64,000 nucleotides of DNA, from assembly GCF_037975245.1 (NCBI RefSeq), contig NC_092581.1, positions 15,811,303-15,875,302 of the forward strand. The letters run 5' to 3'. Below, one piece after another: positions 57,801 to 60,800 of this stretch. The notes beneath the pieces are model-generated. The model searched no databases. It was not told the origin of the DNA and saw only the letters and a list, made by a program, of their open reading frames with translations. This DNA is from Apostichopus japonicus (lineage: Eukaryota; Echinodermata; Holothuroidea; Aspidochirotida; Stichopodidae). Positions within the stretch are counted from its first letter, which is position 1. The number at the start of each line of letters is the position of its first letter. Made by a program: the position numbers and the translations under genes.

Positions 57801-60800
57801 GAAAATTAGAGTGTAGACATTGAGAAAGGCATAACGGAGATTCGTTAGATTCGAAATATCGACTCTAAACCTATAAGTCTTCATTCTGTGTTTCCAAATG
57901 AATATGCATAGACTGATACATATGTCACAACTTGGATGTTGTAATAGGAAAATATGGCAGTATATAGGCTAATATTTTTCTCTGTGTTCAATGTTCCATC
58001 TCGAATTTTGTTTTTGCACAGCCTTGCGAATTTAAACATTTCAACACCTGATGTTGCCAAAGCTAAGGCTAGTGGTGATGAAGGCCTCCTTCAGTATTCA
58101 CGTGACCAAATTGACCAATCACAGCCCAAGTGGAAGGATGTAGCTTGGCTGAAAACTATCACTCACCTACCAATCATTTTGAAAGGAATTATAACAGGTT
58201 TTCAAACGTTCGTTCACAAATTGCGAATATTTCTTGTTCTTTTGATTTACTTTCAAAACTGTTGTATATATATATATAAATGAAAATCGTAATGATTATA
58301 TATATATATATATACATATATATATATATATATATATATATATATATATATATATATATATATATATATATATATATATATATATATATATATATAATAT
58401 AGGTGACAAACGCCTACAGTGGAATTACGACCTTCCTTACCGGTTTCGAACCTCTGGACATACAGTCAGCGTTCATGGCCTAGTGGTTAGGGTGTCCTCG
58501 TACAGAGCGGGAGGCCCGGGCTCGAGTCCCGGTGGAGGCTGGAAGTTTTTTCACTGTTCTTGATTTTCCAACTCATTACGATTTCAAATGTATATATTCA
58601 TTTGCCTTTTTGATCCTAAAGCCGGGTCTCGAAAGAGATACTTTGAACATACTTTATGTTTATGAAATGGAGGTAAACGACAAAGGCAAATAAATATATA
58701 TATATAATTGAAGTGAGGCTTAGTTGTGATTATGTAGAAAGATAGCCATTACGAGTTGTTGGCTTATTTTAAGTCAGTACGCAAAATTGCAGAATCGTAC
58801 TCATATTATATGATGTTAAGCTAATTTCGGCGAATTGCATTCAAACCAGATATTCATATTTTACTTCATGTCTTCATCAGCGGAGAGTGCCAGGGAGGCG
58901 GTTGCTGCTGGTGTTCAGGGTATCATTGTATCAGCTCACGGAGGAAGACAATTGGATGGATTACAAGCACCGGTAAGTCAGTCAGACCAATGTTTAGTGG
59001 CGTTGGAATTGCCGCCTGTAGTAGCGTCGCCACTCCCGAATTAGAAATTCATTCTCATTACTCAGTATCATATAAATGTGCTAACAAATTATTCATATGA
59101 TGCAACTGTTACAGATCGAGGCCTTACCAGCAATATTAGACGCCGTCCGCGGTTCAAAGGTCGAAGTGTACATGGATGGCGGTATTAGAAGTGGACGTGA
59201 CGTTTTCAAAGCAATCGCTCTTGGCGCCAAAGCAGTATTCATGGGACGACCAATTATATGGGGGCTTATACATGACGTAAGAAATATTTTGAAAGTTTGT
59301 AAGATTTTGCTTTAGTTTAAGTGATTCATCTGAAAATAGATTTCCTAATGGATATTAAAACCTGTTGTCCTTTTAGAGGTTATGATGTTCGAAGCAGAGG
59401 TTTTGCCAGCTCCTGAGGGGACATCTGAGTGTTCGGAACTGTTATCATGCAGAGGCTGGTGAACGAACTCATATGTGTTATATTTCCTTTCCGTTTTGTG
59501 AAGTGGTAGAAGAGTTTGGTTTCAAATCATTTATCGGTTTAGAAATATCTTCAGAGCCAATTGTTGCACTGTAAGGTGGGTTGTAGAGATTGGACAACGA
59601 TAAAGCAAACTTAGGGAGGAAAAAATCTTTCGTGGGGTTAGTGAGACATGTGACTTTGATGTGAGGGGTAAACCACAAACTCACTTCAAAACGTCCGGAC
59701 AGATTTAAACATCCGTATAGATATCGTACCACAAATTCCTGTATTTGAAAGTTTTCAACACAGCGGCCCTTTAAATTGCACAAGTATTCATTTTGTAACA
59801 AAGGTGTGCTTGTTTTCTTCAAATAACTAAACGGGGATTATTTAGTGACATAAAACACAACAAAATGACACTTTTAAAGTAGAAAATGGAAAAGGGTCAT
59901 CTTTTATTACTAAAAAAAAACTTTTACAAATATATCTGTGTTTGAGGGAGGAGGGGGTTGGTTGTGGTTTTAAAGTTTGTCTCCGGATTTTTCACTTTTT
60001 TCTCCATCAAAAGGGAGGGCTGTAAATGACAATCAGTTGGATGAACATTGTGATTGTGTTATACTCAGCTTTATATACCATTTTGTTTGGTTAGCGAGGT
60101 GCTAGCCAATAAACTCCCAACTCGAATCTGAATAAACCACATTTCAAAAGAGCACGAAATGAGACCACATTTATGAATCAATGGAACAAAGCAGGAGACT
60201 AATCATATTTACTAATTATGTTTAATTCGATGGTAGTATATAAAGGCCTAAGCATTCCTATTTTGGTTTTAATTTCATGTTTAATTTCCATTTCAGGGTG
60301 CGACGGGGGTGAGGGACGTTTTACAGTTGGTTGAGAAGGAACTGAGCAATACTATGTCTCTATGTGGTAGGTCAAAGGCATCAACCGGTTGCATAGGTGC
60401 AAATAAGCACGTGATCAATGTTTTCTTATATTCTGTTACTCAAAGCGTAGGGTAATTATAGTCATGAAAGATTGTAATCAAATAATTTACGAAAAAAAAA
60501 CATTGTTTCTTTAAGTTTCTGTGTAATATGAAAAATGGAGATCTTAAGTGAATATTAGTATTAAATCTTGGCGACCATTTGAAGAGCGCAAGAAATGATG
60601 GAATGGGGTGGTGGGTTAGTTGGTGCCAATGAGAGATGTCGGATTAGGATTATGGATTTATGTTGTGGAGATGCAGGATGGGTGCAGGTATTAAATCGTG
60701 CGGTACCTCGCGTCATAATGATCTGGTGATGTCGTGGTCACCATTTTGTGTGAGGGGCACTTGTGGCAACACGGGGTTGCATGTCAAGGGCAAGGTAACC

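Follow-up and report, generated by a model that had tools for sequence, protein, structure and literature searches.

Genes and other features of the window

The window, by which we mean the whole 64,000-nucleotide stretch of Apostichopus japonicus DNA analysed here, occupies G000:C21:15811303-15875302, has a GC content of 38.3% and carries three copies of a gene of the FMN-dependent 2-hydroxyacid oxidase (HAO) family. The exons were located with the human HAO1 sequence, which was checked letter for letter against PDB chains, and the splice sites were set by hand. Copy 3 (54821..61129, plus strand) consists of 8 exons (54821-54960, 55176-55327, 57295-57583, 58022-58197, 58881-58972, 59115-59276, 60297-60366 and 61059-61129) with GT/AG borders at every intron and an open frame of 383 aa ending in SKL. 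Copy 1 (29242..40332, minus strand) also has 8 exons (40332-40193, 39455-39304, 38819-38546, 36692-36517, 33168-33077, 32567-32406, 31939-31870 and 29312-29242), all introns being GT/AG, and its open frame encodes 378 aa ending in CKL. For copy 2 (44257..49146, minus strand), which likewise ends in CKL, only exons 2-8 were located (49146-48995, 48867-48597, 47858-47680, 47146-47055, 46916-46755, 46420-46351 and 44327-44257). Since its exon 4 contains an in-frame TGA (47708..47710, minus strand) and tblastn found no exon 1 in 49147-54820, copy 2 is probably a pseudogene within the cluster, and the three copies are therefore two whole genes and one damaged one. A fourth cluster gene, L073, lies past the end of the window (G000:C21:15878500-15888400). 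Its exon-5 peptide is identical to that of copy 2, it ends in SKL and carries Phe at the position of human Arg167, and the search for its exon 1 was equally without result.

The motif S-A-H-G-G-R-Q, which the first-pass annotation had reported in all three copies, was found where it had been placed, and each interval is exactly exon 5: 58881..58972 on the plus strand in copy 3 (Ala codon 58934-58936), 33077..33168 on the minus strand in copy 1 (Ala codon 33113-33115) and 47055..47146 on the minus strand in copy 2 (Ala codon 47091-47093). In copy 3 the exon is preceded by AG and followed by GTAAGT, and with its split first codon it encodes 31 aa. The Ala codon is GCT in every copy, and Ala is also found in paralogues elsewhere, so a sequencing error was dropped as an explanation. 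The spliced models of copies 1 and 3 match the Pfam FMN_dh family strongly (E 7.3e-118, 394 bits, and E 1.1e-113, 380.2 bits, respectively; cut-off 24.9), and so the motif is not a chance occurrence. All three window copies end in a PTS1-type tripeptide; because a PTS1-type end pattern guided the search for their last exons, these ends are not an independent test.

Three other features were recorded. A single frame of 493 aa at 24383-25861 (plus strand) belongs to the glutamine-synthetase family (Gln-synt_C E 9.1e-88). In the PDB it is matched best by prokaryotic-type glutamine synthetases, with 2J9I weaker, and we guess that it may be a lengsin-like gene. ARAGORN reports a tRNA-Cys-like sequence at 58468-58541 (plus strand), between exons 4 and 5 of copy 3, which may be a tRNA-derived repeat. 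A TGTA tetranucleotide array of 116.5 copies with 98% matches lies at 62148-62613, 3' of copy 3.

Active site and substrate pocket

In alignment with human HAO1 (PDB 2W0U, 2RDT), whose numbering is used throughout, copies 1 and 3 retain Tyr26, Gln130, Tyr132, Thr158, Asp160, Lys236, Ser258, His260, Arg263 and Gln264, with identity at 154/369 and 163/369 aligned residues, respectively. His260 and Arg263 are present in all three copies, in agreement with the earlier remark that the catalytic His and Arg are kept. Two replacements are common to copies 1, 2 and 3, namely Asn259 to Ala and Arg167 to Phe. The first means that the Asn-based signature pattern, presumably of PROSITE origin, does not match any of them, as had been expected of a standard pattern scan; the mismatch concerns the pattern and neither the fold nor the catalytic residues. 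The second is absent from the first-pass annotation and is the stronger change; the Phe codons lie at 38608..38610 (copy 1, minus strand), 48656..48658 (copy 2, minus strand) and 57504..57506 (copy 3, plus strand). The window copies further differ from human HAO1 in a rewritten loop 4, and copy 3 has Met in place of Trp110.

The same active-site plan is found in spinach glycolate oxidase (1GOX) and Aerococcus lactate oxidase, both of which have the second Arg where the window copies have Phe. In lactate oxidase this residue is Arg181, the equivalent of human Arg167. According to structural papers, the substrate pocket of human HAO1 is lined by Arg167, Trp110, Tyr26, Tyr132 and Arg263, with Trp110 swinging when inhibitors bind (PMC9114433), and Arg181 and Arg268 of lactate oxidase contact the carboxylate (PMC4908395, PMC7039449). 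Among the literature matches listed, the portions available made structural statements only, and an Arg-to-Phe mutant of the second carboxylate Arg was not among them.

Rat HAO2, the long-chain hydroxyacid oxidase (PDB 1TB3, 3SGZ), belongs to the same family and is identical to copy 1 at 144/349 and to copy 3 at 141/349 positions, but it keeps both Asn259 and Arg167.

The family in the A. japonicus genome

A search of the species' own genome (671,581,487 bases, 35 contigs) with PF01070 gave at least 80 exon-sized matches. We read 19 stretches, two of them adjoining, and together with the three window genes they represent at least 21 loci. Across these 21 loci, site 259 is Asn in 6 (L061, L062, L065, L069, L071, L072), Ala in 10 (copies 1-3, L063, L064, L066, L067, L070, L073, L074), Val in 3 (L076, L077, L078), Cys in one (L075) and Ser in one (L079). 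Neither the trees nor the 17-row counts below include L069 and L078, for which 3 and 2 exons, respectively, were called. L078 (G000:C3:5288000-5295900) is a HAO fragment with H-G-G-H-Q, in which the substrate Arg263 is replaced by His.

In two trees L061 and L062, of which exons 2-7 were read, form a group with human HAO1 (support 99/93 and 89/93). These two are the HAO1-like genes of the genome, and the published A. japonicus HAO1 qPCR primers, as given in PMC12566613, match L061 with 0 and 1 mismatches. Both genes keep Asn259, which stands against the view that invertebrate HAOs ordinarily carry Ala here; we regard that view as improbable. The 17 remaining rows, including the window genes, form one clade with support of 100/99 and 100/98. 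The latter tree compared them with human HAO1, L061, L062, rat HAO2, spinach glycolate oxidase and 9 bacterial rows, where rat HAO2, the sole HAO2 included, and the spinach enzyme were checked in PDB chains; both fall outside the clade. By the trees, therefore, the window genes are not canonical HAO1 orthologues. The suggestion of an undescribed subfamily is thus borne out as far as a divergent HAO clade apart from the HAO1-like genes is concerned. Ala is not its mark, because site 259 in the 17 rows is A in 10, N in 3, V in 2, C in 1 and S in 1.

The substrate pocket varies in the same way. Site 167 is R in 5 rows (L065, L072, L074, L076, L077), F in 4, A, N and S in 2 each, and H and W in 1 each, so that 12 of the 17 have a residue other than Arg or Lys there. 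Trp110 is retained in 4 rows and replaced in 13, and loop 4 is rewritten. The minimum number of changes on the tree is 3 for N/non-N at site 259 (6 when states are counted) and 4 at site 167. Either loss can occur without the other, Asn alone being lost in L074, L076 and L077 and Arg alone in L071; on the starred branches there are 2 independent pairs of Asn259 loss and Arg167 loss, too few for power. It should be noted for all these counts that the paralogue models are automatic, many being partial (without exon 1, 7 or 8), and that some inner branches of the clade are weak.

The same replacements (Arg167 in 12/17, Trp110 in 13/17, together with loop 4) could be taken to mean that the clade consists of pseudoenzymes, i.e. 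FMN-barrel proteins without oxidase activity that serve another role. A study of the family (PMC8491902) is in line with this, in that inactive members often lack a conserved residue: the full set of seven conserved residues occurs in 12 of the 14 active proteins, and at least one is missing in 8 of 10 inactive ones. On these counts the loss of a pocket Arg would be expected to lower activity and not to exclude it, the place of Arg167 among the seven not being given there. Against pseudoenzymes, Asp160, Lys236, His260 and Arg263 are retained in 17/17 rows (the fragment L078, with His for Arg263, is outside the tree), Tyr132 is present in 16/17, and Tyr26 in 10 of the 11 that have a letter at this position. 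Moreover, wherever exon 8 was called in the clade (7 rows), the end is of PTS1 type, and dN/dS is below 0.5 in three pairs, namely 0.24 (copy 3/L073), 0.35 (L063/L066) and 0.42 (L076/L077). We therefore consider a clade of pseudoenzymes unlikely.

Comparison with prokaryotes and viral contigs

For prokaryotes we drew 60 genomes evenly from Pseudomonadota and another 60 from Actinomycetota, each set with its centre genome; the loci listed for them are biased to high-scoring members. These sets yielded at least 43 distinct FMN_dh proteins, with Asn259 in 43/43 and with Arg in 39, Lys in 3 and a gap in 1 at site 167, where the gap case (L126) shows Arg in another alignment. In a total of 85 distinct proteins, some of them picked for Ala or Asn, site 259 is Asn in 75, Ala in 9 and Thr in 1, and site 167 is Arg in 77, Lys in 3, Ser in 1, a gap in 1 and not covered in 3. 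None of them has Phe at 167, which was seen in the four cluster genes only.

A scan of prokaryote genome contigs for S-A-H-G-[AG]-R-Q gave 27 loci, 9 of which BLAST comparison with human HAO1 identifies as FMN_dh proteins (L003, L005, L009, L015, L018, L021, L023, L024, L026). The other 18 were rejected, 12 having motif frames without a human HAO1 match and 6 having no frame that matches the motif expression. We take the titles of the 9 Ala-bearing proteins to be genera or families belonging to Actinomycetota. Because these 9 proteins also carry Ala, the replacement is rare but recurrent; 6 of them put in the tree fall in three separate places, all outside the animal clade. Unlike the window copies, however, they retain Arg167 in 9/9. 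The idea that Ala by itself is a loss of function was dropped, as all 9 keep His260, Asp160 and Lys236. Two of them are, however, without Tyr132 and several without Tyr26.

For viral contigs, the protein-alignment search gave 159 pattern matches and confirmed no relative. The A-type pattern found 0 loci in its first form and 1 in a wider form (L052, without an FMN_dh match at E 1e-20), and the N-type pattern found 24 loci with 19 distinct FMN_dh proteins.

Exon 5 and the age of the alanine

Silent sites were compared exon by exon. Between the window copies, pS is 0.17-0.21 in exon 5, 0.46-0.57 in exon 6 and at least 0.68 in exons 2-4 and 7. When exon 5 of these copies is set against the remaining exons in Fisher tests, p is below 1e-8 (exon 6 omitted, and exon 8 too for copies 1/2). 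With L073 added to make six cluster pairs, exon 5 gives 0.17-0.22 in each, compared with 0.55-0.78 for the other exons pooled. The median exon-5 pS over the 210 pairs of the 21 loci is 0.78. The introns flanking exon 5 are not clearly alike, with 11-21 of 40 bases matching upstream and 11-15 of 40 downstream in ungapped comparison. We also observed that exon 8 of copies 1 and 2 (29242-29312 and 44257-44327) has a pS of 0.43, below that of exons 2-4 and 7, and that the likeness continues for about 38 bases of the preceding intron.

These values are most plainly read as gene conversion that acts between neighbouring genes of either orientation and stays mostly within exons 5 and 6. Selection on silent sites for splicing or another RNA signal could also keep the exons alike, and the fact that the likeness ends near the exon borders is in its favour. 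This is the less probable reading, given that exon 5 has diverged much further in the remaining old pairs: outside the cluster, five recent pairs have a pS of 0.00-0.09 and every other pair is at 0.54 or above. Exon 6 is partly homogenised too, and once the introns had drifted apart, conversion would in any case be restricted to exons. Silent-site selection is thus a rather doubtful explanation in our judgement.

Gene conversion would bear directly on the age of the replacement. The first-pass annotation had argued that sharing by all three copies places the Ala before the duplications; this argument is not supported, since the Ala sits in exon 5, whose silent sites look homogenised, and its sharing does not date it. 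Better evidence for an Ala older than the cluster comes from the Ala paralogues on four other contigs. On the other hand, exon 3, which holds Phe167, has a pS of 0.56-0.91 in the cluster, and this much greater divergence points to common descent for the sharing of Phe at 167 within the cluster.

It could still be proposed that Asn-to-Ala is a selected signature change which defines an HAO subfamily and preceded the duplications that gave the three copies, and indeed Ala is found in 10/17 clade rows on five contigs. We hold this to be very unlikely. The clade also has V, C, S and N at site 259, with at least 3 changes between N and non-N; the window copies share exon 5 by apparent homogenisation; and Ala also occurs in the 9 actinobacterial relatives that retain Arg167 (e.g. 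L005, L015, L023).

Discussion

Our preferred reading, to which we assign a probability of roughly 0.55, is that the window genes come from a clade of FMN-dependent (S)-2-hydroxyacid oxidases which has expanded and diverged in this sea cucumber, and that these enzymes are probably peroxisomal and altered in substrate range. In the alignment, the hydride-transfer residues and the main carboxylate Arg (Tyr132, Asp160, Lys236, His260 and Arg263) are kept, while the second carboxylate-binding Arg167, the gate Trp110, loop 4 and the Asn that precedes the catalytic His vary. The enzymes of the clade would most likely still use FMN and oxygen to oxidise a 2-hydroxy acid, giving H2O2, but with altered and perhaps bulkier or more hydrophobic substrates. 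The Asn-to-Ala replacement would be a tolerated part of this drift and not its cause, just one sign among several of a larger set of quickly diversifying paralogues, and gene conversion largely within exons 5 and 6 would have kept exon 5 nearly identical throughout the cluster, as the silent sites suggest. A peroxisomal location is probable from the PTS1-type ends. The cerebrosides of sea cucumbers are rich in 2-hydroxy fatty acids, and as a guess these might be among the substrates.

A wider proposal, which we put forward tentatively and think rather less probable, is a radiation of peroxisomal flavin oxidases across sea cucumbers, perhaps echinoderm-wide. In such a radiation the second carboxylate Arg would have been lost and the substrate gate opened, the kept hydride-transfer core would act on substrates outside the glycolate, lactate, mandelate and long-chain range, and exon-sized gene conversion would keep the catalytic-His exon of neighbours in step.

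Metazoan enzymes have diversified following gene duplication, according to PMC7020209. Genes named hydroxyacid oxidase 1 have been reported in A. japonicus (PMC7203883, PMC12566613), and the accessible parts of these papers did not include an analysis of residues. The main text of a preprint on the Holothuria glaberrima genome and its expanded families (PMC13228809) does not contain hydroxyacid oxidase, HAO1 or glycolate oxidase. Among the literature matches listed, which did not extend to subscription papers, no description of this sea-cucumber clade was found. The strings SAHGGRQ, SAHGARQ, SNHGARQ and SNHGGRQ matched no paper in the literature text searched, the normal motif included, and hence their absence is uninformative.

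The family is a textbook case of flavoenzymes and human HAO1 is a drug target. Paralogues that keep the His, Asp, Lys and Arg while varying Arg167, Trp110 and Asn259 would help to separate the residues that set the substrate from those that the pocket can dispense with. The automatic name 'putative hydroxyacid oxidase 1', given to two genes in PMC12566613, may cover unlike enzymes. Finally, homogenisation on the scale of single exons is a caution against dating substitutions by their presence in tandem copies.
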